From Arthrobacter globiformis (GTDB lineage: Bacteria; Actinomycetota; Actinomycetes; Actinomycetales; Micrococcaceae): a stretch of 64,000 nucleotides of DNA. The notes below the pieces were generated by a model. It worked only from the letters and a program-made list of their open reading frames with translations. It had not been told where the DNA came from and ran no database searches. The stretch is taken from contig NZ_QLNP01000064.1 in assembly GCF_003261175.1 (NCBI RefSeq), forward strand, positions 62,001 to 126,000, given 5' to 3'. Both the position numbers and the translations under genes were made by a program. Shown piece after piece: positions 21,430 through 35,885 of this stretch (positions within the stretch are counted from its first letter, which is position 1; each line of letters opens with the position of its first letter).

Positions 21430-22437
21430 TCAAGCGACCGCGTTAGCCGCCACGTCGTCGGGCGTCGCCGCGTCCTCCGGCAGGTCCGCGAGGAGTTCAG
21501 CCGCCGTGGGCGGGTTGGCTCCCGGGCGGCGCACGGTGATCGCGGCGGCCTTCGAGGCAGTGCGTCCCAAGGTTTCCAGCACTGCCGGCGCCAGGCCATC
21601 CGCTCCCCGCGCCAGGAGCCCGTAGATCAGCGCCGCCATATACGAATCCCCGGCCCCGATGGTATCGGCCACTGCGGACCTGACGGCCGGCACCACCAGC
21701 TGCACGTCCGGAGTGGCCAGCAGCGACCCCTCGGAACCGCGGGTGACCACCGCGAGCCCCGCACCCAGCTCGAGGATGCGCGCCGCTGCGTCCTCCAGCT
21801 GCAGGCCAGGATAGAGCCAGCGGGCATCCTCGTCGCTCAGCTTGACCACGTCGGTGAGCGATACCAGCTCCTCGAAGATAGTCCGGGCCTCGGCATGGCT
21901 GCCGAGGAGTGCCGGGCGGATGTTGGGATCGTAGGTGACCACGCATTCACGGTGCGACTGCTCCAGGAGGGTCCTGACGGCTGCTGCGCCCGGGGCCAGG
22001 AAGGTCGCGATGGAGCCGGTGTGGAGCACCTTGGGAAGGGATGCCGGTGCCACGGGTGGCAGTTCCCAGCGGATGTCGAAGTCGTAGCTGGCCGATCCGT
22101 CGGCGGCCAGCGTCGCCGTGGCTGTGGCCGTCCTGCCCGGTGTCCTCGAACCGGGCAGGAGTGCGACGCCGGCACGCTGCAGGTGCGCCTCGATGGCCCG
22201 CCCGCGGTGGTCGTCGCCGATCGAGGTGAGGAGTGCGGTCCGGATGCCGAGCCGGCCCAGCCCGTAGGCAACGTTCGCCGGCGATCCACCGGGGTGCTCG
22301 ACTGTTCCGTCTGCGGACGCGACGACGTCCACCAGGGCTTCACCGATGACGATGACTTCCGGGCTTGCCGCGCGGGCTTCTGAGTAAGCAGTGCCGGTGC
22401 CGGGGGTGGAGGTTGGATTCACGGTGAGGCCTTTCAT
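21430..22437 (-). CDS. PfkB-family sugar kinase, probable fructokinase
   Basis: 335 aa. PfkB signature 1 (HPGGSPANVAYGLGRLG) and signature 2 (DTIGAGDSYMAAL, with the catalytic Asp) are both present; the N-terminus VIVIGEALVDVV is typical of bacterial fructokinases. Last gene of the sugar-ABC operon, so it likely phosphorylates the imported sugar. The start at 22437 was chosen where the conserved protein begins; the reading frame extends upstream through the hairpin at 22442. Confidence 0.87.
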   Translation of the reverse strand: MKGLTVNPTSTPGTGTAYSEARAASPEVIVIGEALVDVVASADGTVEHPGGSPANVAYGLGRLGIRTALLTSIGDDHRGRAIEAHLQRAGVALLPGSRTPGRTATATATLAADGSASYDFDIRWELPPVAPASLPKVLHTGSIATFLAPGAAAVRTLLEQSHRECVVTYDPNIRPALLGSHAEARTIFEELVSLTDVVKLSDEDARWLYPGLQLEDAAARILELGAGLAVVTRGSEGSLLATPDVQLVVPAVRSAVADTIGAGDSYMAALIYGLLARGADGLAPAVLETLGRTASKAAAITVRRPGANPPTAAELLADLPEDAATPDDVAANAVA

Positions 22438-22535: not shown

Positions 22536-23330
22536 TCAGGCCGTGGCGGCGCCCGTCATGATCGCCACGGCGTCGGTCATGCTGTGCGACTGAGGCGTGA
22601 TGGTCGCCGCGCACTTTCCGAGCCGCTGGACGTGGATCCGGTCCGCCACGTCGAACACATGGGGCATGTTGTGGCTGATCAGAATCACCGGCAGGCCCCT
22701 GTCCCGGAGGTCGCGGACCAGTTGCAGGACCTGGTTCGATTCCCGGACGCCGAGTGCCGCCGTCGGCTCATCGAGGACAACCACCTTGGAGCCGAACGCC
22801 GCGGCGCGGGCCACGGCCACAGCCTGGCGCTGGCCGCCGGACAGGTTCTCCACCGGCACTGTCACGTCCTGGAGTGTCGAGATGCCCAGCCGGGTCAGTT
22901 CCTCCTTGGCCTTGCGGCGCATTCCCTTCGTGTCCAGGACACGGAAGAGCTTGCCCAGCGGGCCGGCAAGCCGTTCTTCGCGGCCCAGGAACAGGTTGGA
23001 AGCAACGTCCAGCGCGGGTGAGACCGCAAGGTTCTGGTAGACGGTTTCGATGCCGTGGGCGCGGGCGTCCTGCGGCCGCTTGAAGTGCACTGCCTGCCCG
23101 GACACCTTCAGCTCGCCGGAGTCCGGCACCTCGGCGCCGGTGAGGCACTTGATCAGGGTGGACTTGCCAGCCCCGTTGTCGCCGATGACGGCGAGCACTT
23201 CACCCGGGTAGAGGTCCAGGCTGACGCCGTCCAGGCCCACAACGCGTCCGAAGGTCTTGACGAGGTTCCTGGCCTGCAGGATCGGCTGCCGCACCGCGGT
23301 GCCGGACGGCTGCATTTCAGTGGCGGTCAT
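22536..23330 (-). CDS. Sugar ABC transporter ATP-binding protein (FrcA-like)
   Basis: 264 aa, a single nucleotide-binding domain rather than the fused double domain of RbsA. Walker A GDNGAGKST, signature LSGGQRQAV, Walker B VVVLDEPTAALG and ISHNM are present. The layout SBP-permease-single ATPase-kinase resembles the rhizobial fructose transporter FrcBCA-K. Its ATG overlaps the permease TGA (ATGA). Confidence 0.92.
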   Translation of the reverse strand: MTATEMQPSGTAVRQPILQARNLVKTFGRVVGLDGVSLDLYPGEVLAVIGDNGAGKSTLIKCLTGAEVPDSGELKVSGQAVHFKRPQDARAHGIETVYQNLAVSPALDVASNLFLGREERLAGPLGKLFRVLDTKGMRRKAKEELTRLGISTLQDVTVPVENLSGGQRQAVAVARAAAFGSKVVVLDEPTAALGVRESNQVLQLVRDLRDRGLPVILISHNMPHVFDVADRIHVQRLGKCAATITPQSHSMTDAVAIMTGAATA

Positions 23331-24388
23331 GATTTCACCTTTCGGATCCACTGGTCGATGGACACAGCGAGGATGATGAGGACGCCCACGGCGAGGGTCT
23401 GGTACAGCACGTCCAGTCCCGCCAGGGACAGGCCGTTGCGGAACACGCCCACGATCAGCGCGCCGAGGAGGGAACCCCAGACGGAGCCGCGGCCGCCGAA
23501 GAGGCTGGTTCCGCCAATCACGACGGCGGTGATGGAGTCGAGGTTGAGGTCAACTCCGGCGTTGGGGCTGGCTGCGTTGGTGCGGCCGATCTGGAGCCAG
23601 GCACCCATGGCCAGGACGGCCCCGGCGGCGAGGTAGACGCTCATCAGGACGCGGTTGACTGGAATGCCGGCCAGTCGGGCGGCTTCCTTGTCATCCCCGA
23701 CGGCGTAGACGTGCCGGCCCCACGCGGTCTTGCCCAGGATGAATGCCACGGCGCCATAGAGCAGGAGCATCATGATCACGCCGGTGGAGATGCGCACGGG
23801 GCCCAGCGGGAACGTGCTTCCGGTCCAGGTGAGCAGGCCCGGCATGCTGGAACCGCGGACGGTGGAACCGCCGGAGTACAGCAGCGTGACGGCGATGAAG
23901 ATGTTCAGGGTTCCGAGCGTGACGATGAACGGCGGGAGTTTGAACCTGGTGACGAGGAAGCCGTTGAGGGCGCCTGCCCCAAGGCCCACCACGAGGCCGG
24001 CCAGCAAGGCCAGCGGGCCGGGAATGCCGCTGCCCACGGCCAGCTGCGCCACCACCATGGACGAGAGGATCATGACGGCGCCGACGGAGAGGTCGATGCC
24101 CGCGGTGAGGATGATGAGTGTCTGCGCGATCGCCAGGGTTCCCACCACGGAGACCTGCTGGGTGATCAGCGAGAGGTTTTCGAACCGCAGGAACCGGTCG
24201 TTGAGGAGCCCGAAGACCACCACGGCCACGAGCAGCACAATCGCCGGGCTGAGCGCCGGGTACCGGTGCAGGATGTTGCGGATGCGGCTGAGCGGGGTCT
24301 GGCGGTCGAGGAATTCCCCGGCCAGGTCGGCGTGCCCGGTGGCGGGCGGGCCGGCTGTCTGTTGCTGGGCCATGTTTGCTCCTGTCAT
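23327..24388 (-). CDS. Sugar ABC transporter permease (FrcC/RbsC-like)
   Basis: 353 aa, about ten hydrophobic segments. The RbsC-family core LIILTAGIDLSVGAVMILSSMVVAQL and the loop ARLAGIPVNRVLMSVYLAAGAVLAMGAWLQIGRTNAASPNAG are clear. It starts 6 nt after the binding-protein gene ends. An internal ATG at 24373 is an alternative start. Confidence 0.93.
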   Translation of the reverse strand: MTGANMAQQQTAGPPATGHADLAGEFLDRQTPLSRIRNILHRYPALSPAIVLLVAVVVFGLLNDRFLRFENLSLITQQVSVVGTLAIAQTLIILTAGIDLSVGAVMILSSMVVAQLAVGSGIPGPLALLAGLVVGLGAGALNGFLVTRFKLPPFIVTLGTLNIFIAVTLLYSGGSTVRGSSMPGLLTWTGSTFPLGPVRISTGVIMMLLLYGAVAFILGKTAWGRHVYAVGDDKEAARLAGIPVNRVLMSVYLAAGAVLAMGAWLQIGRTNAASPNAGVDLNLDSITAVVIGGTSLFGGRGSVWGSLLGALIVGVFRNGLSLAGLDVLYQTLAVGVLIILAVSIDQWIRKVKS

Positions 24389-24394
24389 GTCCGG

Positions 24395-25513
24395 TTACTT
24401 GCCCCAGCAGATCTGGGAGGCGTCCGACGTCGTGATGCTCTTGACGCCGTCGGCGGCCTTGTCCGTGACGAGTTCCACGCCGGTGTTGAAGAAGTCCAGG
24501 CCCTCGGAGTTGGACGGCTTCTGGCCGGTCTTGGCGAGGTCGACGATCGCCTTGACTCCGAGCTCGGCCATCTTCACCGGGTACTGCTGGGCGGTGGCGC
24601 CGATGATGCCGGACTTGACGTTGTCAACGCCGGTGCAGCCGCCGTCCACCGATACCACCAGGACGTCCTTCTCCTTGCCGGCGGACTTCAGGGCTTCGAA
24701 GGCACCGGCCGCGGCGGGCTCGTTGATGGTGTAGACGACGTTGATGTTCGGGTTCTTGGCGAGCAGGGTCTCCATGGCCGTGCGTCCGCCGTCCTCGGCG
24801 CCCTGCGAAGCCTGGCTGCCGACGATTTCGTAGTCGCCGCCCTTGCCGCCCGTGTACTTGCCGGTCTTGGCTTCGTCGCCGTTCTTCTTCTTGTCCGCGG
24901 TGTCGATGCCGAGGCCGGTGAGGAAGCCCTGGTCGCGGTTGTAGTCCACCGAGACCACCTTGTCGTCGAACAGGTCCACGAGGGCAATGGTGGCCTTTTT
25001 GCCGTTCAGCTGGGCGGCCGTCCACTTGCCGATCAGCTCACCGGCCGCGAAGTTGTCCGTGGCGAACGTGATGTCCGCGGCGTCTGCAGGGTCCGGCGGG
25101 GTGTCGAGCGCGATGACGAACAGCCCGGCGTCCTTGGCCTTCTTCAGTGCGTCGACCACTGACGGGCCGTTGGGGGTGATCAGGATGCCCTTGTCGCCCT
25201 TGGAGATGGCATTTTCGATGGCCTGGATCTGGGTGTCCTCATCGCCGTCGGCTTTGCCGGCCGCGAGCTTCAGGTCGACGCCGTCGGCCTCGGCAGCTTT
25301 CTTGGCTCCGTCCTGCATGGAAACGAAGAACGGGTTGGACGTGGTCTTCACGATCAGGGAGACGCCGACCTTTTCGGACGAGGAGCCGCCGGTGGTGGAG
25401 GTGGCGGTGGAACTTCCGCCGCAGGCGGTGAGGCTGAGCGTGCCGAGGGTCAGGACTGCGCCGATGGCGAGCAGGCGGTGGGTGACTGTCCGCGGGGCTT
25501 TGGAACTCAACAT
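24395..25513 (-). CDS. Sugar ABC transporter substrate-binding lipoprotein (FrcB-like)
   Basis: 372 aa. Lipoprotein signal with LSLTAC and Cys31, then a periplasmic-binding-protein type I fold (VGVSLIVKTTSNPFFVSMQDGAKKAAEADGVDL, GILITPNGPSVVDALKKAKDAGLFVIALDTP). Binds a hexose outside the cell; fructose is inferred from the adjacent kinase, regulator and fructanase. First gene of the operon, directly downstream of a promoter with a LacI-type operator. Confidence 0.92.
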   Translation of the reverse strand: MLSSKAPRTVTHRLLAIGAVLTLGTLSLTACGGSSTATSTTGGSSSEKVGVSLIVKTTSNPFFVSMQDGAKKAAEADGVDLKLAAGKADGDEDTQIQAIENAISKGDKGILITPNGPSVVDALKKAKDAGLFVIALDTPPDPADAADITFATDNFAAGELIGKWTAAQLNGKKATIALVDLFDDKVVSVDYNRDQGFLTGLGIDTADKKKNGDEAKTGKYTGGKGGDYEIVGSQASQGAEDGGRTAMETLLAKNPNINVVYTINEPAAAGAFEALKSAGKEKDVLVVSVDGGCTGVDNVKSGIIGATAQQYPVKMAELGVKAIVDLAKTGQKPSNSEGLDFFNTGVELVTDKAADGVKSITTSDASQICWGK

Positions 25514-25543: not shown

Positions 25544-25596
25544 TGCCTGACAACGATGTCAGGCATCATGTAATCAGCGTCACAGGGTAGAGTCAA
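25544..25596 (-). promoter_or_regulatory. Promoter and LacI-type operator of the sugar ABC operon
   Basis: On the minus strand a TTGACT -35 (25591-25596) and TTACAT -10 (25568-25573) are spaced by 17 bp. Just downstream lies the palindrome TGCCTGACA-ACGA-TGTCAGGCA (25544-25565), whose core is GACAACGATGTC. Operator placement after the -10 suits repression by roadblock or occlusion. Confidence 0.75.
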
Positions 25597-25624
25597 GGCA
25601 AATGCAAAGATGAAGGACGGATTA

Positions 25625-26677
25625 ATGACAACGATGTCTAATCGTTACCAGGCCGAGGGGGCCAAGAGCCGGCCCACCATGCGCCATGTGGCGGCGCTGG
25701 CCGGCGTGGGGATCAAGACGGTGTCGCGCGTCATGAACGACGAGCCCGGTGTCTCGGAAGCCACACGGCAGCGTGTACTTGGTGCCTCACAGCAGCTGAA
25801 CTACCAGTTGGACATGGCGGCGGGAAGCCTTAGGCGCGCCGGCCGGCAGACACTCTCGGTTGGGCTCCTGCTGCCGAGCGTTGCCAACCCGTTCAGCAGC
25901 GAGATCCACCGCGCCATGGAGGATGCACTGGCTGCCCGCGGAATCGCGGTCTTCGCAGCCAGCCTGGACGACGACGCCGAGCGCGAGAAGGCCCTGGTGA
26001 CTGCCTTCCTCGGCAGGCGCGTGGACGGACTGGTGCTCACTCCCATCGCCAAGAGCCAGGCATACGTCATTCCCGAACATTCCCGCGACCTGCCCATCGT
26101 GTTCATCGACCGCGAGCCCGTGGGCATCGAAGCGGACGCGGTGGTGACGGACAACGCCGTCGGCGCCGCAAAGGCGGCGACACACCTGATTTCGCACGGC
26201 CACACCCGGATCGCGTACATGGGCGACCGCACCGACATCCAGACGGCCCGGGAACGGCGCCGCGGGTTTACCGAGGAACTTGGCCGGGCGGGCATAGCGA
26301 CCTCCACGGTTCCGGTCCGCGAGGGGCTCCATGATGAGGAGTCGGCGCGTCTGGCCACCCTGGAGCTGCTCCGGGCTGAAGAGCCGCCCACAGCTATTTT
26401 TTCCAGCCAAAACCTGGTGACCTTCGGCGTCATGCGGGCCCTGAAGGAGCTGGGCCTGAACAAGCGCGTCGCCCTCGTGGGCTTCGACGACTTCACCCTG
26501 GCGGACATGATGGAACCGGGTGTGACCGTCATCGCGCAGCACCCGGACCGGATTGGAAAACTGGCCGCCGAGCGCCTGCTGGCCCGGATCGACGGCGACC
26601 ACGGCGCGGCGCAGACCTACGTTGTCCCCTCCGAGCTCATCACCCGCGGCTCCGGCGAGCTCCGCCCGCCTGAATAA
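25625..26677 (+). CDS. LacI-family repressor of the fructose/fructan genes
   Basis: 350 aa. HTH TMRHVAALAGVGIKTVSRVMNDEPGVSEATRQRV, and the sugar-binding domain ends GFDDFTLADMMEPGVTVIAQ. The start at 25625 is preceded by AAGGA with a 7-nt spacer; an upstream ATG at 25610 lacks one. The gene is divergent from the sugar ABC operon and its start codon overlaps a copy of the operator. Two copies of the same 12-mer flank the intergenic region and a third is at the GH32 promoter, so it likely represses all three. Confidence 0.92.
   Translation: MTTMSNRYQAEGAKSRPTMRHVAALAGVGIKTVSRVMNDEPGVSEATRQRVLGASQQLNYQLDMAAGSLRRAGRQTLSVGLLLPSVANPFSSEIHRAMEDALAARGIAVFAASLDDDAEREKALVTAFLGRRVDGLVLTPIAKSQAYVIPEHSRDLPIVFIDREPVGIEADAVVTDNAVGAAKAATHLISHGHTRIAYMGDRTDIQTARERRRGFTEELGRAGIATSTVPVREGLHDEESARLATLELLRAEEPPTAIFSSQNLVTFGVMRALKELGLNKRVALVGFDDFTLADMMEPGVTVIAQHPDRIGKLAAERLLARIDGDHGAAQTYVVPSELITRGSGELRPPE
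25627..25638. promoter_or_regulatory. Second operator copy overlapping the repressor start codon
   Basis: GACAACGATGTC is identical to the core of the operator at 25549-25560 and begins on the G of the ATG. Expected effects are autorepression and, with the other site 78 bp away, possible looping. Confidence 0.7.
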
Positions 26678-26722
26678 TCCCCCAACTACCGACCCCTCAC
26701 AACCCACCCCGACAGGAGAACC

Positions 26723-27016
26723 ATGACCAAGACGCTTTACGCCGAATTCACCGTTAAGCCCGGCAGTGAAGCCCGCGTTGCCGAAATGATGCGTGAACTC
26801 ACCGAGCAGGTGCGCAGCGAGCCCGGCAACCAGCTGTTCCTGCCGTACACCCGGGAAAATAATCCCCGCGAGTACTTCGTGTTCGAGGTGTACCGGGACG
26901 CGGAGGCCTTCCAGGAACACATCACGGCGGACTACGGCGCCGTGTTCAACGGGGAACTCGTGGACCACATCGAGGAGGACGGCTCGGTGCTGACCTGGCT
27001 GCAGCCGGTCCACTAG
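26723..27016 (+). CDS. Antibiotic biosynthesis monooxygenase (ABM)-domain protein
   Basis: 97 aa, the usual length of a YgiN/ABM dimeric alpha-beta barrel. Features: LYAEFTVKPGSEARVAEMMRELTEQVRSEPGNQLFLPYT, YFVFEVYRDAEAFQEH. Members oxidise quinols or aromatic compounds without a cofactor, but many have no proven role. It lies 45 nt after the LacI gene on the same strand with AGGAG upstream, so it may be co-transcribed and sugar-linked. Confidence 0.85.
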   Translation: MTKTLYAEFTVKPGSEARVAEMMRELTEQVRSEPGNQLFLPYTRENNPREYFVFEVYRDAEAFQEHITADYGAVFNGELVDHIEEDGSVLTWLQPVH

Positions 27017-27047
27017 GCCAGATCCAGCGCCGCATCCAGTACACAAG

Positions 27048-27084
27048 AAGGCCGGTGGCCGCAGCATCTGCGGCCACCGGCCTT
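27048..27084. terminator. Bidirectional terminator between ABM gene and GH32 gene
   Basis: A 17-bp perfect stem (AAGGCCGGTGGCCGCAG and its complement) with a CAT loop, flanked by A/T-rich ends, between convergent genes. Confidence 0.92.
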
Positions 27085-27116
27085 TCCATTCGACTGCCTT
27101 ATCCCGACGCCGGTCC

Positions 27117-29777
27117 TTACTTCCTGTTCTTGGCCGGCACCTGCGCGGCCTGGAACATGGACTGGCTGAGCGGCGTGACGGTCAGCGACTTCAGTCGGGC
27201 GGTGCCGCCTTCGGCGAAGAGCGCCACCTGGTTGGCGCCCTGTTCAGGGAAGACCTGGTCCGTGATAGTCCGCAGGCCGTTCTGCGCGAATACCTCCACC
27301 GAGGACCTGTCGACGTAGATGCGCAGTGTCACGTTGCCGCTGGCATCCACGGCCACGGGTGCGGAGTCAACCGAGGTGAAGAGCGGGTGGAAGTCAGTCA
27401 TGCCGGAATTGCTCCGGTCCACATACACCTCGCCCGAGGCCTTGTCGTACCCGATGACTGTCGACTTGCTGCCGTTCCCCAGCACGGTGATTCCGGCCTT
27501 GGCTGCTGAACCGGGGGCGAAGGTCACGTCGATCCGCTGCACATCGCCCGAAGCCGCAGGTGGCAGCACGTGGGTGCCGGCCGGAATGTTCCGCGCCCGC
27601 TTTTCGGCGTAGCTTTCCTTCCCGGCGAGGCCATCCACCTGCTGGACTGCCTTTTGCGTCAGGCGCGGACCGCTGGCCGTCTGCGTCAGCGCCACTTCGC
27701 GCGGCAGGGACATTGCGCTGCGCCAGGGCGACGTTGGAATGTTATTGGCGTAGTCCCAGTTGTTCATCCAGCCGAGCATGATCCGCTTGTTCTGCGGCAT
27801 GTTGCTGAAGGATACGGACGCGTAGTAGTCCCGGCCGTAGTCCAGCCAGTCGTAGGTCTGCACCCGCGGCGTGGCCGGCCGCGGTGAGGCGACGAACTCG
27901 TCCGCCAGGATGTGGCCCCAGCCGAAGCGGTTGTTGTCCACGACGCGGATGCTGGCCTGCTGCCCCTTGAATTCGGAGACGTTCCACGACGCCCAGTCCA
28001 GGACCTCGCTGTTGGCGCCGGTGGCCGTCCTGACCACCTTGCCGTCCACCACGAGGTTGACGGTGGTCTCGTCGGACCGGGGCACAGCGGCCTGGTCCGT
28101 CAGCATGACGTGGTCCAGGGTGAGGTGCCCCCAGCCGCCGGTGGCCTGGTCCACCACCCGCAGCTGTGCCTGCTGTCCCGCGAATTCGGCCACGTCCCAG
28201 CCCTTCCAGTTCAGGGCGCCCGCGTCGTCGCCGGCGAGGCTGCGCACCACGTTCCCGTTCACCAGTAGCTGGACTTCCAGCGTCTGGCCGGAGCCCGCCG
28301 CGCGGTGTCCGCCGCCCACCAGCATGCTCATGAAGTTCCGGTTCAATGTGAACGACGGCGACGTCAGGGTTCCCTGCCTGTCGTCGCCGGGCGCTCCTCC
28401 CGTATCGAACGTGTTGATCCGCTTGGCGCCGATATAGAAGTCGCCGCCGGAGGTTGACGGCTGGAAAGCCGGTGCCAGATCCCCGGTTCCTGTCCACCCG
28501 GCGTCGGCCAGTGTGGAGGCGTCCGGTACCTCGAAGCCGTTGAACAGCAGGTCCCCGGGCGGCGGGGTGTTGTCCAGCTTGTCCGAGACCCGCGGGTGCT
28601 GTCCGCCACCCACGAGGAAGTTGAGGTAGTCGCTGGCTACGGTGAATTGCGGCGAGTTCATCGAGCCCACCGGCCAGTCGCCGTCGTTGAATGAATTGAT
28701 CAGGCCGGCGCCGGCAAAGCCGGTAACGCCGTTCTGCCCGGGGAGCGTGCCGGCCGCGGGTGCTCCGGCGAACGGGCCGCCCTTCGAGTTGCCGGGTCCG
28801 TTGTTCACCGTCCAGCCGCTGTACGTGCCGTCATTGAAGCCTGCCAGGGGAGTGCCCGCGGGCAGTGCGTCACTGGCCTTCGTGGTTTCCGACCTGAAGG
28901 TGGTGCCGTCGAAGTTGCCCACGAAGTACTGCCCGGCCGAGCCTCCCGCCACGCCTCCCGGGTTGATGTTGACCACCATCACCCACTTGACGTTCGCGGG
29001 GTCGCCGTCGACAGCAAGCGGGAACAGGTCGGGGCATTCCCAGAGCCCGCCCGTGGCATTCGCCGGGCCGAATTCGCTGAGCTGCGTCCAGTCCTTGAGG
29101 TTGCCCGACTTGTACAGCACCACCTTGTGCTCGGTGGCCTCCACGGCGGTCATCACCCAGTAGCCGCCGCCGGGGGAGTCGTACCAAAACACCTTCGGGT
29201 CGCGGAAGTTCGCCGAGTTGCGGTTGAGCACCGGGTTGCCGCTGTACTTGGTCCAGGTTTTGCCCTCGTCCAGGCTGTACGCGAGGGATTGGGCCTGCAG
29301 CCCCTTATAGGGAGAGGCGTCCTTGTAGGCACTGGTGAAGATGGCCACCAGGGGAGGGTTCTCCGCCGTGCCGAGGCCGGAGCTGTTGTTCTTGTCCACC
29401 ACGACGCTGCCGGAGAAGATGTCCTGCTGGTCGTCAGTGGCGATGGCCAGCGGTTGCTCCTTCCAGTGCACCAGGTCTGTCGAGGTGGCATGGCCCCAGG
29501 ACATGTTGCCCCACTGGTTGCCGGACGGATTGTGCTGGTAGTAGAGGTGGTAGACGCCCTTGTAGAACACCATTCCGTTGGGATCGTTCATCCAGTTCTG
29601 CTGTGGCGTGTAATGGTAGGCCGGCCGGAACTGCTCGTCGCCGGAGGTCCCGGCCGCCGCCGCTGTTCCTGTTCCGGCCAGTACCCCGGCCAGGCTGAGA
29701 CCTGCCACGGTCAGCGCGGTACATAGCTGTAATCTGCCGAATTTTCTCTGGTGCATAGTGCTGGTATCGCCCTTCAT
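27117..29777 (-). CDS. Secreted GH32 fructan hydrolase (levanase/inulinase/invertase) with long inserted module
   Basis: 886 aa with a Sec signal peptide (hydrophobic 18-40, AAAAG cleavage region). GH32 catalytic residues: nucleophile Asp65 in WMNDPNG, stabiliser Asp193 in FRDP, acid/base Glu247 in WECPD. The usual propeller motif DYGRDYYASVSF appears only near residue 655, because roughly 300 residues are inserted after the fourth sheet region. The insert holds two related units (NFLVGGG/SMLVGGG; NG.VVRSLAG..W.GWDVAEF.GQQA.LRVVD...GWGH). A C-terminal beta-sandwich (VDRSSVEVFAQNG) follows. GAAGG precedes the ATG. Confidence 0.93.
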   Translation of the reverse strand: MKGDTSTMHQRKFGRLQLCTALTVAGLSLAGVLAGTGTAAAAGTSGDEQFRPAYHYTPQQNWMNDPNGMVFYKGVYHLYYQHNPSGNQWGNMSWGHATSTDLVHWKEQPLAIATDDQQDIFSGSVVVDKNNSSGLGTAENPPLVAIFTSAYKDASPYKGLQAQSLAYSLDEGKTWTKYSGNPVLNRNSANFRDPKVFWYDSPGGGYWVMTAVEATEHKVVLYKSGNLKDWTQLSEFGPANATGGLWECPDLFPLAVDGDPANVKWVMVVNINPGGVAGGSAGQYFVGNFDGTTFRSETTKASDALPAGTPLAGFNDGTYSGWTVNNGPGNSKGGPFAGAPAAGTLPGQNGVTGFAGAGLINSFNDGDWPVGSMNSPQFTVASDYLNFLVGGGQHPRVSDKLDNTPPPGDLLFNGFEVPDASTLADAGWTGTGDLAPAFQPSTSGGDFYIGAKRINTFDTGGAPGDDRQGTLTSPSFTLNRNFMSMLVGGGHRAAGSGQTLEVQLLVNGNVVRSLAGDDAGALNWKGWDVAEFAGQQAQLRVVDQATGGWGHLTLDHVMLTDQAAVPRSDETTVNLVVDGKVVRTATGANSEVLDWASWNVSEFKGQQASIRVVDNNRFGWGHILADEFVASPRPATPRVQTYDWLDYGRDYYASVSFSNMPQNKRIMLGWMNNWDYANNIPTSPWRSAMSLPREVALTQTASGPRLTQKAVQQVDGLAGKESYAEKRARNIPAGTHVLPPAASGDVQRIDVTFAPGSAAKAGITVLGNGSKSTVIGYDKASGEVYVDRSNSGMTDFHPLFTSVDSAPVAVDASGNVTLRIYVDRSSVEVFAQNGLRTITDQVFPEQGANQVALFAEGGTARLKSLTVTPLSQSMFQAAQVPAKNRK

Positions 29778-29818
29778 CGCGCGTGCCTTCTGCCCTCCCC
29801 CTAACCGGCGGGCAGGTA

Positions 29819-29870
29819 GACAACGTTGTCAGTGACTGGAACGCTAGGGGATGTCCACAAGACAAGTCAA
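29819..29870 (-). promoter_or_regulatory. GH32 promoter with LacI-type operator
   Basis: Minus-strand TTGACT (29865-29870) and TAGCGT (29841-29846) with an 18-bp spacer. Downstream lies GACAACGTTGTC (29819-29830), a perfect 12-bp palindrome differing by one base from the sites at the sugar ABC promoter. This ties the secreted enzyme to the same repressor. Confidence 0.72.
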
Positions 29871-30010
29871 CGGATTCGGCGGCCGTAAGCCGGCGTTGTG
29901 TCCTAGGCTCTCATGCCCCATTGCGCCAGTGGTCGCGGCGCCGCCCTCGGTCCGGTTGAGGCGGGTTGGCCGGGTGCGGCTTGGAGCCAGCCGTTGTGCC
30001 AGGCGAACCA

Positions 30011-30022
30011 GACACCGTTGTC
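30011..30022. promoter_or_regulatory. Possible distal operator
   Basis: GACACCGTTGTC differs by one base from the GH32 operator and lies 192 bp away. The gene-free stretch 29778-30109 (332 nt) contains this site, the GH32 promoter and operator, and nothing else that I can name. It could be an auxiliary site for looping or belong to the lipoprotein gene. Confidence 0.35.
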
Positions 30023-30109
30023 ACCGTATTACGAAGGCTGAGCCTGGCAGGCGCCGAGGGCAGCCTTCGGCGTCGGACTTCTCCAACCCACCGTTGCTAG
30101 GGTGGGATC

Positions 30110-30604: not shown

Positions 30605-32860
30605 ATGAAGGCTCCCAGCCAGCAGCACGCGACTTCCCCTGAAACACCTTCGCCGGAAACCTCCTCCCGTGAGCCCTCTCCCTCTGAAGCGCCGGCGGGC
30701 AACGGAACGCCGGGAACCAGCGCATCGGTCAATCCCGAGTTGCTGCGCTGGCTGGCAGAGGCGTACGGCGTTGGCACGTCATACCAGGGGTGGGACGGAC
30801 AGCCGCATGACGTAGCGGCTGGCACCCTGATCCGCGTCCTTGCGGCGCTGGGAGTCGACGCCCACACGGACCAGCTCATCGAGCACGAACTGGCCGAGGC
30901 AGAACTGGCGCCCTGGCGCCGTATGCTGCCGCCCGCCGTCGTAATTCAGGAAGGGACGCCGGGGCAGGTGAGCGTCCATGTTCCGCACGGTGCGCCAGTC
31001 CGGATGTGGGCCGTCACCGAGGACGGGCGAGAGCTGGGGGCCGTCCAGGAGGACGTTTGGGTGGAACCCCGCGAGGTGGACGGCACCCTGACCGGCCGGG
31101 CCACATTCGCCGTGCCCCAAAACACCGGCCTGGGATGGCATACCCTGCGCGCCGAGGCAGCCGGAGTGGTTGCGGAGGCCACGCTGGTGGTGACTCCTGC
31201 CAGGCTATCCACAGCGGCCGACCTTGAGCAGCGCCGGGGCTGGGGACTGGCGACGCAGCTTTACTCCGTCCGTTCCAAGCGGTCCTGGGGCGTGGGCGAT
31301 TTTGCCGATCTGGCCGAGCTCGCGGCGGTGGCCGGAGCGCGCGGGGCCGACTACGTGCTGGTCAATCCGCTGCATGCGGCCGATCCCGTGTCGCCTCTGG
31401 AGCCGTCCCCGTATTCGCCGTCGACCCGCCGGTTCTTCAACCCGCTCTACCTGCGGATCGAGGCCATTCCGGAGCTGGCGTACCTGAAGCCGAAGAAGCA
31501 GTCCCTGGTCCACAGCCTCATGAAGCAGGCGCGGAAGCTGAACAAGGACGCCATCAGGCTTGACCGGGACAAGGTCTACTCCGCCAAGCTGGCCGCGCTG
31601 GAGCTGATCTTTGCTGTCCGCCGTTCGCCGTCGCGGCAGCTCGCGTTTGAGGACTACTGCCGCCGGGCCGGCGCGGGCCTGGATGATTTTGCCCTTTGGT
31701 GCGCGATCCGCGAGGATCTCGACGCCGATGACCCGTTCTGGGCCGACCCAACGGCTGCGCTCGGCTCGCCTTTGGCGGAGAAGCTCAGGGCGGAGCTGGC
31801 GGAACGGATTGAGTTCCACCGCTGGCTGCAGTGGCTTTGCGATGAGCAGCTCGAATCCGCCCAGCAGGCGGCGCGCAACGCCGGCATGCGCCTGGGCGTG
31901 GTGAACGACCTTGCCGTCGGCGTGGACCTTCAGAGTTCCGATGCCTGGACGCTGCAGGGCGTCCTCGCACCCGGCGTCAGCGTCGGAGCGCCGCCGGACA
32001 TGTACAACCAGCTGGGGCAGGACTGGCACCAGCCGCCATGGCACCCCACCCGTCTCGCCGAGGCCGGCTACAAGCCGTTCCGGGAGATGCTTGCAACGGT
32101 GCTCCGGCATTCGGGCGGCATCCGGGTGGACCACATCCTCGGCTTCTTCCGGCTCTGGTGGGTGCCGGAAGGGAACTCGCCGGTGGACGGCGCCTACGTC
32201 CGTTTCGACCACGACGCCATGATCGGCATCCTCGCCCTGGAAGCGCACCGTGCCGGCGCCGTGGTGATCGGCGAGGACCTGGGCACGTTCGAGCCGTGGG
32301 TCCGGGACTACCTCGCCGCGCGGGGCATCCTGGGCACCTCGATCCTGTGGTTTGAGAACGACGGCGACGCCCCGCTGCCGCCCGAACGGTACCGGCTGCA
32401 GGCCCTCTCAAGCGTGAACACCCACGACCTGCCGCCCACCGCCGGGTACCTTGCCGGCGACCACGTGACACTGCGCAACGCGCTGGGGCTGCTGGAGCGT
32501 TCTGCCGAGGAGGAGCGCCTGGAGCACAATGCCAAGCTGGAGAAAATGCTGGACCTGCTCCGGCAGCGCGGCCTCCTTTCGGCCAACGATGCCGGCTCCG
32601 AACAGGAACGCATCGAGGCGCTGCACCGACTGCTCGCGCAGACCCCGTCCGTTCTTCTCGGGGTGGCCCTTGTGGACGCGGTCGGCGAACGGAGGGTCCA
32701 GAACCAGCCCGGAACCACCTCGGCCCAGTACCCCAACTGGCAGGTGCCGCTTGCGAACTCCGACGGCGACTCCGTACTGATCGACAGCCTGGAGGCCGAC
32801 GACAGGTTCAACTCCCTGCTCGCTGCGGTCGAGGAGGCCGTGCGGGCTAGCCGGCCGTGA
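30605..32860 (+). CDS. malQ: 4-alpha-glucanotransferase MalQ (GH77)
   Basis: 751 aa. Disproportionates maltodextrins by transferring alpha-1,4-glucan chains. The N-terminal ~60 residues are a Ser/Pro-rich tail, then an actinobacterial beta-sandwich domain, then the GH77 barrel from about residue 205 (RGWGLATQLYSVRSKRSWGVGDF). Catalytic region motifs: GVVNDLAVGVDLQSSDAW, GGIRVDHILGFFRLWWVP, VIGEDLGTFEP and NTHDLPPTAGY. The 250s-loop motif PPDMYNQLGQDW is present. Its 3' end overlaps the convergent GH13 gene by 14 nt. Confidence 0.95.
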   Translation: MKAPSQQHATSPETPSPETSSREPSPSEAPAGNGTPGTSASVNPELLRWLAEAYGVGTSYQGWDGQPHDVAAGTLIRVLAALGVDAHTDQLIEHELAEAELAPWRRMLPPAVVIQEGTPGQVSVHVPHGAPVRMWAVTEDGRELGAVQEDVWVEPREVDGTLTGRATFAVPQNTGLGWHTLRAEAAGVVAEATLVVTPARLSTAADLEQRRGWGLATQLYSVRSKRSWGVGDFADLAELAAVAGARGADYVLVNPLHAADPVSPLEPSPYSPSTRRFFNPLYLRIEAIPELAYLKPKKQSLVHSLMKQARKLNKDAIRLDRDKVYSAKLAALELIFAVRRSPSRQLAFEDYCRRAGAGLDDFALWCAIREDLDADDPFWADPTAALGSPLAEKLRAELAERIEFHRWLQWLCDEQLESAQQAARNAGMRLGVVNDLAVGVDLQSSDAWTLQGVLAPGVSVGAPPDMYNQLGQDWHQPPWHPTRLAEAGYKPFREMLATVLRHSGGIRVDHILGFFRLWWVPEGNSPVDGAYVRFDHDAMIGILALEAHRAGAVVIGEDLGTFEPWVRDYLAARGILGTSILWFENDGDAPLPPERYRLQALSSVNTHDLPPTAGYLAGDHVTLRNALGLLERSAEEERLEHNAKLEKMLDLLRQRGLLSANDAGSEQERIEALHRLLAQTPSVLLGVALVDAVGERRVQNQPGTTSAQYPNWQVPLANSDGDSVLIDSLEADDRFNSLLAAVEEAVRASRP

Positions 32861-35726
32861 TCACGTGCGTGGTGTGGTTGTACCGGAAGGTGACCGGGCC
32901 GCCGTCGTGGTTCAGCACGATGTTGGAGCCGTTGGGCGCGCCGTCCTGGCCGTAGTTTTCATCCCAGGAGCCGTTGATGGCCGCCTTGGATTCGTACGTC
33001 CCGGCCGGAAGGTCGGCCGTCAGTTTCCACTGGCGGTCGGCCGGATCAAAGGCCATGAACGCCGACGGGCAGGCCGGCTGCCAGTCATCCGGGCAGCCCA
33101 TCTCGCTGTTCAGGCTTCCCGCAACGGTGACCGAGTCGGGCTGCGGTGCGGCGCCTACCACCACCGTCCGGACATTGCTCACCACGTTCGATCCGTCGAG
33201 CTTCGCCCGGTACTTCACCTCGGCTCCGTCGGGGAGGCCCAGGGCGGCCAGGTCGTCCATCACGGTGTAAGCCGGCGAGGAATCATCGCTGGAGCCGATG
33301 GCTGTCCACGTCCCGCCAGCGACGCTGCGCTCAAACCGCACGGCATGGCTGGCCTTCCCTGGGTCCGCCGTGGCAACCACTTCCAGGTTCCCCTGGACGG
33401 TGCTGCCCTCGGCCGGCTGCTGGATGGTCAGCAGCGGGTCCGGCACCACGGCGGACCGGGAAGCGCTGACAGACGTGCGGCCGGCGTTGTTCAGGACGAC
33501 CGCCCGGTACTCCACGGCAGTGCCGGGATTCAGTCCCGAAACGTCGTGGAAGACCCGGTAGGGTGCGGTGTCATCGGTGCCCACGCGCCCCCACTTGCCG
33601 CCCGGCGTCCGGGCCTCAAAGGTGACCTCGTAGAACGAGCCGCCGTCGACGTCGGCCGTCACCTGGATGCGGCCGTTGTCCCCGGTCGACGCGCCGGTAG
33701 CCGCAGCCGAAACGGGAGCCTGCAGCGCGACGGCGGGCACCGCTTTCTCGCGGGGTATCCGGCCGGAGGACTGGTAGACGACGGCGGACAGCGGCGGCAC
33801 CGTGACGGTCAACTTGCCGCCGGCTGAGGTCTTGGAGTTTTGGGCAGCTTCGCCATAGATCAGGCTGTAATTGCGTTTGGCGATGTAGGTGGGAACAGCG
33901 GCGGTCTGCGGCTTCTCGCTGTTGTTCAGCGCCACCACGTACTCACGCTGGTCCTTGGCGTCGGTGCGGGAGAAAGCGTAGATGCCCGGTCCATCCGAGG
34001 CGTACCGGTGCTGGTGGGCGCCGTCGCGCAGGGCGGGGTGCTCCTTGGTCAGCTGCGCGAGTTCGCGGATCTTGGCGTAGAGGGGATGCCCGGTGTTGAA
34101 GTTGTCGGCGGCGTGGGTGGCGTCCGTGCCGAGCAGGTCGTCGTCGAGATAGTCGGGCACTTTGCTGGCGAACAGGGTCTGGCGGGCGTCCTGGTCCCCG
34201 CCCGGACCCGTGAAGCCCTGCTCGTCACCGTAGTAGACCACGGGGTTTCCGCGGGAAAAGTACATGAGCGCGTGGGCGAGTTCGTCGCGGGCCACGCGTT
34301 CGGCGTCGTCCGCGTCCGGGTTGTCGGTGCTGATGAAGCTGCCGATCCGGCCCATGTCGTGGTTCCCCAGGAACGTGGGCAACTGGTAGACGTTGGAATC
34401 CGCGTCGGTGTACCAGTCGTCGGCGCCAAAGAAGGTCTCCAGCGCTTTGGCGTTCTGGCTTTTCGAGGCGAAATTGCGCGCTACATCCTGGAACGGGAAG
34501 TCGAGGACCGCCTGCATCCTGTTGCGGGTGGTGAACTGGGAGGTGAAGCTCTTGGAGGTGTCGAAGACCTCGCCGAACATGAAGAACTCGTCCTTGCCGT
34601 GCTCCTTGGCGTAGGCGAGGACGTCCGGCCCGAACTGCTGCCAGAATTCGTCATTGACGTGCTTCATCGTGTCGATGCGGAACCCGTCCACGCCGAAGTC
34701 CCGGATCCACGTCTCGTAGATGTCCGTCATGCCGGCCACGACCGTCGGGTGTTCGGTGAACAGGTCGTCAAGGCCGAAGAAGTCGCCATAGAAGGAGTTT
34801 TCGCCGGCAAAGGTGGTGTCGCCGCGGTTGTGGTAGAGCGTCGGGTCATTGAGCCAGGCCGGAACCTTGAGGTTCTGTTCCGCCGGATCAAGCACCGGCG
34901 TGTACGGGAAAGAGGTCCCGGCGTCGAGCTTGGGGAAGTCCGCACGGCCGGCGAAGTCCCGGTCATCGAAGGCTTTGCCGGTGGCGGTGCGGTACGGCTC
35001 CTTGTCCTTGGAGACGTAGCCGGTGCGGGCGCCCTCCTTGTAGCCGATGACGTCCGCGGTGTGGTTGGTGATGATGTCGAAGTACACCTTCATGCCGTGC
35101 GAGTGGGCCTCGTCGATCAGCGCTTTCAGTTCGGCGTTGGTGCCCAGGTGCGGATCGATCTGGGTGAAGTCCGTGACCCAGTAGCCGTGGTAGCCGGCAG
35201 AGTTGTCCTCGGGCTGGACCGCCTTGTTCTTGAAGCTCGGCGTCAGCCAGATCGCCGTGGTTCCGAGTCCCTGGATGTAGTCGATCTTGTCCAGCAGTCC
35301 GTCCAGGTCTCCGCCGTTGTAGAAGCCCTTGCGGGTGGGGTCGAAGCCGGAGACCATCGGGTCCGGTCCCAGGCCGCCCTGGTCGTTACCGGCGTTGCCG
35401 TTGCTGAATCTGTCCGCCATAACGAAGTAGAAGTTTTCGCCGGTGACGGGAGTGCGGAGCGAATGGGCACCTGTTCCGGGTTTAGCGTCCGACGGCGGGC
35501 CAGGGGTTTTGGTGGGGGCTGCGGCTTGGGCGGGTGCCTTGGGTGGCAGGGCCGCTGTGGTTGGCGAAGCGGCCGTGGTTGGCGTCGCCTGCCCGGGTAC
35601 GGCCGACGCAGCCAGCAGGACGGCTGCGCCCGCTGCCGCCAGAGTTGCCCGGGCGGACTTGGTGGGCGCGCCCGTGCGGCGCGGGGGATTCAGGCGCAGG
35701 AAATTCAGGCGAGGGACGGTGAGCAA
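32847..35726 (-). CDS. Secreted multidomain GH13 alpha-amylase/pullulanase-type enzyme
   Basis: About 959 aa. Signal peptide, Ala/Pro/Thr-rich linker, then a GH13 barrel: NHTADVIGY region I, FRIDTMKHVN with the nucleophile Asp, MFGEVFD with the acid/base Glu, and FLGNHDMGR with the third Asp. After the barrel come a domain-C sandwich, two Fn3-like or Ig-like repeats (both with a RFERSVAGG/TFEARTPGG-type strand), and a C-terminal X25/SusE-like module (GSLNSEMGCPDDWQPAC) as seen in pullulanases and amylases. The TTG start at 35726 was chosen for GGAAGG six bases upstream; the frame is open to 35801. Confidence 0.88.
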   Translation of the reverse strand: MLTVPRLNFLRLNPPRRTGAPTKSARATLAAAGAAVLLAASAVPGQATPTTAASPTTAALPPKAPAQAAAPTKTPGPPSDAKPGTGAHSLRTPVTGENFYFVMADRFSNGNAGNDQGGLGPDPMVSGFDPTRKGFYNGGDLDGLLDKIDYIQGLGTTAIWLTPSFKNKAVQPEDNSAGYHGYWVTDFTQIDPHLGTNAELKALIDEAHSHGMKVYFDIITNHTADVIGYKEGARTGYVSKDKEPYRTATGKAFDDRDFAGRADFPKLDAGTSFPYTPVLDPAEQNLKVPAWLNDPTLYHNRGDTTFAGENSFYGDFFGLDDLFTEHPTVVAGMTDIYETWIRDFGVDGFRIDTMKHVNDEFWQQFGPDVLAYAKEHGKDEFFMFGEVFDTSKSFTSQFTTRNRMQAVLDFPFQDVARNFASKSQNAKALETFFGADDWYTDADSNVYQLPTFLGNHDMGRIGSFISTDNPDADDAERVARDELAHALMYFSRGNPVVYYGDEQGFTGPGGDQDARQTLFASKVPDYLDDDLLGTDATHAADNFNTGHPLYAKIRELAQLTKEHPALRDGAHQHRYASDGPGIYAFSRTDAKDQREYVVALNNSEKPQTAAVPTYIAKRNYSLIYGEAAQNSKTSAGGKLTVTVPPLSAVVYQSSGRIPREKAVPAVALQAPVSAAATGASTGDNGRIQVTADVDGGSFYEVTFEARTPGGKWGRVGTDDTAPYRVFHDVSGLNPGTAVEYRAVVLNNAGRTSVSASRSAVVPDPLLTIQQPAEGSTVQGNLEVVATADPGKASHAVRFERSVAGGTWTAIGSSDDSSPAYTVMDDLAALGLPDGAEVKYRAKLDGSNVVSNVRTVVVGAAPQPDSVTVAGSLNSEMGCPDDWQPACPSAFMAFDPADRQWKLTADLPAGTYESKAAINGSWDENYGQDGAPNGSNIVLNHDGGPVTFRYNHTTHVITAG

Positions 35727-35885
35727 GTTGGACCTTCCGCGAAGCAACGCTGCTTGTCCGGGCGGGGATGCCCGGAATCCGTTGGGTGCCGACTCGGCCA
35801 AGACAAGTCCATTAACCAGCCACAGCTCTTGTGATGAAGCGGTATTGGCAATGACTAATCCTGTATTGGCTATGTCGATTGCGGT

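Follow-up and report, generated by a model that had tools for sequence, protein, structure and literature searches.

A predicted autoregulated LacI-type regulon of fructan and fructose use in Arthrobacter globiformis

Introduction

Among the LacI-family regulons surveyed by Ravcheev et al. (2014, PMC4052901), FruR and BfrR are listed for fructose and fructo-oligosaccharides, and 72% of the studied regulators are given as autoregulated in the available sections of that survey. By their descriptions in the accessible parts of the source papers, the regulons of BfrR and FruR in Bifidobacterium (PMC4746261), listed for fructo-oligosaccharides and fructose, are likewise actinobacterial, and SacR1/SacR2 of Lactobacillus plantarum (PMC7419226), a different genus, are likewise local repressors of fructo-oligosaccharide metabolism. 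The frc fructose locus of Sinorhizobium meliloti (PMC10433430) serves as a comparison system, and the available part of that paper mentions no fructanase or levansucrase.

The locus described here resembles the local LacI-family regulons of the survey, as far as its available text describes them, in the even palindrome with central CG, the small size of the regulon, the autoregulation and the sugar genes. Unlike the norm of the same text, the Arthrobacter operator overlaps, in nearly all orthologues, the start codon of the regulator gene itself; since less than 1% of the LacI-family sites there lie within coding regions, this position is an uncommon arrangement, though autoregulation itself is common. 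The regulation is thus of a familiar kind with some unusual layout. The terms "Arthrobacter" and "Micrococc-" are absent from the main text of the survey (PMC4052901).

No description of this regulon or of its motif in Arthrobacter was found in our search of the literature, which lay outside RegPrecise and the supplements of papers. RegPrecise has a Micrococcineae collection, in which an entry for the regulon is possible.

Results

The window, which is the whole stretch of DNA analysed, comprised 64,000 nucleotides of A. globiformis (contig NZ_QLNP01000064.1, positions 62,001 to 126,000), and the four palindromes of the original prediction stand in it where that prediction had placed them. The sequence GACAACGATGTC is found at 25549-25560, within the longer imperfect palindrome TGCCTGACAACGATGTCAGGCA, and again at 25627-25638, overlapping the ATG at 25625, while GACAACGTTGTC, a perfect 12-bp palindrome, lies at 29819-29830 and GACACCGTTGTC at 30011-30022. 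The even symmetry and central CG of LacI/GalR operators are present in these predicted sites, for which the sequences suggest the consensus WGACAACG(A/T)TGTCW. With one mismatch allowed, the motif gave 10 strand-matches in the window against 1.17 expected, with a maximum of 5 in 100 shuffles, and no site within two mismatches of the 14-mer was found in the window beyond these four, named O1 to O4 below (given without a strand).

The original prediction would have failed if the motif were common away from sugar genes, and a scan of the whole genome (4,880,416 bases) left it standing. Six distinct places match GACAACGNTGTC (8 strand-matches; 3 for the reversed-pattern control), consisting of the four window sites, C65:62043 near a GH68 gene and C31:70865; outside the locus there was thus a single further perfect palindrome, which precedes a levansucrase gene, and one start-codon match with non-palindromic flanks. 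The 14-mer TGACAACGTTGTCA with up to two mismatches occurs at 16 places (reversed control, 8): four in the locus, one at GH68 and the other 11 in other parts of the genome. Nine of the ten off-target places with a locus lie inside a predicted reading frame, the frames being chosen by third-position GC and the eleventh place (C75) being left out. With one mismatch the 14-mer has only three places in the genome, all at O1, O3 or GH68. The match at C31:70865 carries an exact GACAACGATGTC that overlaps the start of a gene judged by eye to be hydantoinase-like, and was taken as a probable chance occurrence.

Conservation was followed in a same-genus sample of 61 genomes, the own genome included, with at least 76% identity defining an orthologue, and in 58 named loci, mostly from Arthrobacter with some from Pseudarthrobacter, Paenarthrobacter, Glutamicibacter and Agromyces. 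Many of the named loci come from the same genomes and offer a larger view, not an independent sample, and the relatives are akin to one another, so that the counts are not independent events. Orthologues of the repressor were found in 23 of the 61 genomes (25 copies), and O1 and O2 were both kept in all 25 copies, 77-79 bp apart. In the named loci O1 was kept in 55, O2 in 57 and both in 54, with a spacing of 77-80 bp in these 54 and of 67 bp in three others. The latter (L217, L218 and L231; one named Glutamicibacter and two Arthrobacter sp.) are similar to one another and have a degenerate O1 with 2 mismatches, and O2 was degenerate in L229, a distant metagenome-assembled genome. At the family level, the protein was present in 12 of 197 genomes and 5 of 32 genera (E 1e-90 or better); in eight of nine additional loci from this sample, neither site differed from the 14-mer at more than 2 positions, and in the remaining locus, the most distant at 52% identity, one site was kept. 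Phylogenetic footprinting supports the three promoter and regulator sites, in agreement with the single autoregulated regulon that had been proposed from the sequence. The proposed count of three sites was too low, as a GH68 site lies outside the window and the palindrome at 30011 looks like a real auxiliary site. The regulon appears to be larger than first described, with the GH68 and 30011 sites added and probably the gene for an ABM-domain protein as well. Stray sites with 2 mismatches were seen inside genes in L085 and L087.

The proposed regulator is the LacI-family protein encoded at 25625..26677 on the plus strand. It contains the LacI helix-turn-helix domain (PF00356, 56.4 bits; cut-off 27) and a periplasmic-binding-like domain (PF13377, Peripla_BP_3, 108.2 bits; cut-off 26.5), and reached no NCBIfam cut-off, the nearest models being ribose repressors. 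Its score was 144.7 against a required 389.55 bits for TIGR02417 (fruct_sucro_rep, the D-fructose-responsive factor) and 188.4 against 382 bits for the ribose repressor RbsR (NF047341). The operator O2 (TGACAACGATGTCT, 25626..25639) overlaps the start codon of this gene and is at the same time upstream of the frcB -35 box. A Shine-Dalgarno-like AAGGA (25613-25617) stands 7 nt before the outer NTG codon, and the arrangement NTGACAACG-NTG-TC at O2 gives two in-frame NTG codons. The position of O2 within the first codons of the gene could also reflect a conserved coding sequence (M-T-T-M-S-N-R) and not an operator, but this is very unlikely in view of the pattern of substitution. The outer start codon was TTG in 33, ATG in 16, GTG in 8 and CTG in 1 of the 58 named loci, and codons 3 and 4 also vary in some loci, while the palindrome stays; in three Agromyces loci the residues change and the palindrome persists. 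The Thr codon ACA after the outer start was kept in 57 of the 58, although ACA makes up only 163 of the 1203 Thr codons in the repressor genes, those 57 included. Since the start codon varies and a less-used codon is kept, the constraint at O2 is on the DNA, and the regular spacing between O1 and O2 argues in the same direction for O2 as an operator.

Downstream of the repressor, after a gap of 45 bp, lies the gene of a small ABM-domain protein of 97 residues (26723..27016, plus strand; Pfam ABM 51.6 bits, cut-off 23.1), which is probably co-transcribed with it. In nearly all orthologue loci the ABM gene comes after lacI, and the residues that are invariant across 14 sequences included Y6, H66, Y71, N76 and W92. 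By analogy with frcS of Sinorhizobium, the protein may be a fructose mutarotase. An ABM gene was also seen near pfkB in L108 and L109, the loci of LacI relatives with 41-44% identity.

On the other side of the repressor, an importer-kinase operon is encoded on the minus strand. It consists of an FrcB-like substrate-binding lipoprotein (24395..25513; Pfam Peripla_BP_4 155.5 bits), an FrcC-like permease (23327..24373; BPD_transp_2 133.3 bits) and an FrcA-like ATPase with a single ABC domain (22536..23330; ABC_tran 111.8 bits) of a sugar ABC importer, followed by a PfkB-family sugar kinase, probably a fructokinase, whose start is uncertain (21430..22437; PfkB 135.9 bits). In the frcB promoter, the -35 box TTGACT (25591..25596, minus strand) was present in 59 of 59 upstream regions, namely the window and the 58 named loci, and the -10 box TTACAT (25568..25573, minus strand; 17-bp spacer) in 43 of the 59. 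The operator O1 (TGACAACGATGTCA, 25548..25561) lies just downstream of this -10 box, and its core begins 7 nt after the box in 47 of the 59 regions; a site over about +1 to +14 would be in a classical position for repression. An additional TGTGA-N6-TTACA at 25569-25584, covering the spacer and the -10 box, was seen in 49 of the 59 regions and resembles a CRP/GlxR site. The FrcB-like gene adjoins lacI in 23 of the 25 same-genus copies; in the other two (L104 and L105) the importer gene was not found beside lacI, pfkB stood there instead, and O1 and O2 were still kept.

The identity of the transported sugar was less clear from these proteins. The importer has the expected domains but scored below every sugar-specific NCBIfam cut-off, and neither importer nor kinase reached any NCBIfam cut-off, so that the term fructose rests on the context of GH32, GH68 and the kinase. 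An alternative, which we consider unlikely, is that the regulon is the same and the transported sugar and inducer are not free fructose but, for example, a fructo-oligosaccharide, phosphorylated fructose, or another monosaccharide such as ribose or psicose. The closest named models of the binding protein, for allose and ribose binding proteins, agree with this alternative, as do the nearest models of the repressor and the many ribose and allose binders among the solved relatives of the binding protein, which are of low similarity; the scores of these models were far below their cut-offs, however. Fructose is favored by the GH32, GH68 and fructokinase-like PfkB genes, which share the sites or the operon, and the nearest solved structure to the kinase is the PfkB fructokinase 7fca (E 5.7e-54), with 117.7 bits to the NCBIfam fructokinase model, below its cut-off of 450.

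The third unit under the predicted operators is a secreted GH32 fructanase of the exo-inulinase/levanase type (27117..29777, minus strand; start at 29777 or at an inner ATG near 29756), convergent with the lacI-ABM pair. The enzyme contains both GH32 domains (Pfam Glyco_hydro_32N 323.5 and 32C 117.8 bits) with a long insert between them and, by eye, a signal peptide, and its best solved relative is the exo-inulinase 8i12 (E 1.1e-189); the substrate is a prediction. Its -35 box TTGACT (29865..29870, minus strand) was found in the upstream regions of 17 of 18 relatives, the exception being L092, whose region was shown centred on its auxiliary site. The -10 box is TAGCGT in the window (29841..29846, minus strand; 18-bp spacer) and, by eye, TAGCGT, TACCGT, TAGTGT, TAGAGT and others in relatives. 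The operator O3 (AGACAACGTTGTCA, 29818..29831) lies between the -10 box and the start codon and begins at about +4. An inverted repeat TTGTC-N4-GGACA (29852-29865) was also observed between the -35 and -10 boxes; relatives have it too, the 49%-identical GH32 loci among them, some copies carrying a mismatch, and it is possibly the site of another regulator.

Counting only the best GH32 match per locus, the site was present at all 18 same-genus loci with a GH32 gene and in 47 of the 48 named loci with the GH32 start inside the locus, the exception (L207) being a 49% match. It was kept where the GH32 gene has the opposite orientation (L094, L096, L098 and L100) and at GH32 genes of 49% identity (L102 and L103). 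Seven of the 25 same-genus loci had no GH32 gene, among them L105, a contig of 3.9 kb. The search for GH32 genes outside such loci covered one genome (G049), and there a GH32 gene elsewhere had a site 54 bp upstream. At position 7548 of L093 a GH32-type operator was seen although no GH32 gene was found there and its neighbours have one, which has the appearance of a site that outlasted its gene. Beyond pfkB, at the far end of L087 (12133-13593) and L095 (11920-13380), a further GH32 gene was seen that is only distantly related (31-41% identity in the matched segments), and no operator was found for it in the fetched stretches.

The auxiliary operator O4 (AGACACCGTTGTCA, 30010..30023) lies 192 bp upstream of O3 and also precedes, by about 87 bp, a gene for a small lipoprotein (30110); such a gene was not detected in L091 and L092, where an O4-like site is present. 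A second site with at most one mismatch, 66-203 bp upstream of the main site, was found in 13 of 48 GH32 upstream regions, the window included, whereas Markov resampling gave a mean of 0.04 regions and at most 1 in 300 runs; several of the 13 loci are close relatives. Eleven of these 13 sites read GACAACGGTGTC on the GH32 strand. At 10.5 bp per turn, the distances between auxiliary and main operators tended to share one helical phase, a signal that is weak for these distances by themselves, with a Rayleigh p of 0.057 (8 distances), 0.081 with one distance per presumed clade (7 distances) and 0.008 when the O1-O2 spacings of 78 and 67 were added to the 8. Helical phasing or looping of the paired operators is only suggestive from these values, since the distances were grouped by hand post hoc and come partly from kin.

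The scan with the motif alone led to a second fructan enzyme on another contig, which counts as a success of the original prediction. C65:62043 carries AGACAACGTTGTCA, identical to the GH32 site over all 14 bases. About 205 bp further downstream is the ATG of a gene whose product contains a GH68 domain (Glyco_hydro_68, 460.3 bits; cut-off 27) and has the levansucrase 1w18 as its best solved match. In the four GH68 promoters that were aligned, the spacer between TTGA[AG]C and TA[GC]CG boxes, which were assigned by eye, is taken up by the operator. The operator was found upstream of GH68 in 4 of the 15 orthologue genomes examined and in none of the 15 genomes without an orthologue, with 14 of the 44 GH68 matches left out of the scan as they had no locus. 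By its distribution, the site seems limited to a lineage, and GH68 would join the regulon in some genomes only. About 50 bp upstream of the GH68 operator another palindrome with the look of a LacI operator, GTAAGCGCTTGC, is conserved in the four aligned sequences (L116, L112, L113 and L115), and from this sequence the levansucrase gene may have a second LacI-family regulator.

The number of sites tracks the presence of the regulator. With at most one mismatch, the 14-mer had 53 matches in the 23 orthologue genomes (2.3 each, at least one in every genome) and 27 in the 38 genomes without an orthologue (0.71 each), and the reversed-pattern control had 17 in the 23 orthologue genomes (0.74 each); the totals were summed by hand from the per-genome counts. 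From among the matches listed, 20 stretches were viewed by eye. Five of the ten from orthologue genomes were at GH68 or GH32 and five, all with a single mismatch, were away from fructan genes (L123, L126, L127, L130 and L131). No obvious fructan gene was seen in the ten from genomes without an orthologue, one of which (L128) had its site at a gene that was LacI-like in a family search.

These counts bear on the explanation that some other LacI-family protein of the genome, and not the neighbouring one, binds the palindromes. Candidates exist, as at least 33 places in the genome match the repressor (33 of 50 candidates scored), and LacI-family operators resemble one another: in G009, TGACAGCGTTGTCA stands 36 bp before a different LacI-like gene, and CGACAACGTTGTCA was seen upstream of the relatives with 41-44% identity in L108 and L109. 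We regard this explanation as very unlikely, because sites are more numerous in genomes holding the orthologue, all 25 copies have O2 on the start of the repressor gene itself, and 23 of them share the recognition helix GVGIKTVSRV, which reads GVGTKTVSRV in the remaining two. Within the own genome, the protein next in similarity (C53, 41% identity; L110) has no site within 2 mismatches in the surrounding 14 kb, and the confinement of the one-mismatch places to O1, O3 and GH68 is also in favor of the neighbouring repressor. Two paralogues share its recognition helix. The 74%-identical one (L106, G036) has one weak site with 2 mismatches (585), upstream of a different importer gene, and for the 55% one (L107, G028) no site was found in the fetched 14 kb.

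Discussion

The same site at several operons of one pathway and at the gene of the regulator, kept in relatives, is the pattern of a local autoregulated sugar regulon. It is very probable that a local LacI-type repressor of fructan and fructose use acts via O1, O2, O3, probably O4, and the GH68 site. Direct observation covers the sites themselves, how far they are conserved, where they lie with respect to promoter-like boxes and that they occur together with the regulator, and the steps from binding onward are modelled by analogy on the LacI family. Gene context points to the 25625-26677 protein as the binder and to fructose as the sugar and inducer.

In the proposed mechanism, this protein would bind WGACAACG(A/T)TGTCW as a dimer. 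At O1 it would sit on the transcription start of the frcBCA-pfkB operon, which runs from 25513 to 21430. Bound to O2, over the start codon of its own gene, it would repress that gene and the ABM gene. Its place at O3, where O4 probably assists, would be immediately downstream of the GH32 promoter, and at the GH68 site it would sit between the -35- and -10-like boxes of the levansucrase gene. Paired operators might cooperate or loop. In the absence of inducer the repressor would block the frcBCA-pfkB, lacI-ABM and GH32 units and, in some genomes, GH68. Fructose would be set free from sucrose, levan or inulin by a basal level of levansucrase or fructanase and taken in by the importer and kinase, and fructose or a phosphorylated derivative would then release the repressor and induce the whole set, more repressor included.

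A more complete circuit of levan turnover can be imagined, in which GH68, GH32, uptake, mutarotation by the ABM protein and phosphorylation are all co-induced by fructose, the paired operators form helically phased repression loops, and O2 (NTGACAACG-NTG) comprises both candidate start codons of the repressor. We put this forward as a tentative extension that is probably not correct in full; if true, the O2 operator and the translation start would evolve as one element.

Many Arthrobacter genomes encode this repressor, for which a function is proposed here, together with an operator code for fructan use in soil actinobacteria that can be tested. The model predicts one signal for both levan synthesis and levan breakdown, at least in the lineage where GH68 carries the operator, and such a shared switch matters for the storage of extracellular fructan by these bacteria and for its recovery. 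The stretch adjoining the locus (30605-35801) encodes a 4-alpha-glucanotransferase (GH77) and a large alpha-amylase that contains an X25 domain.
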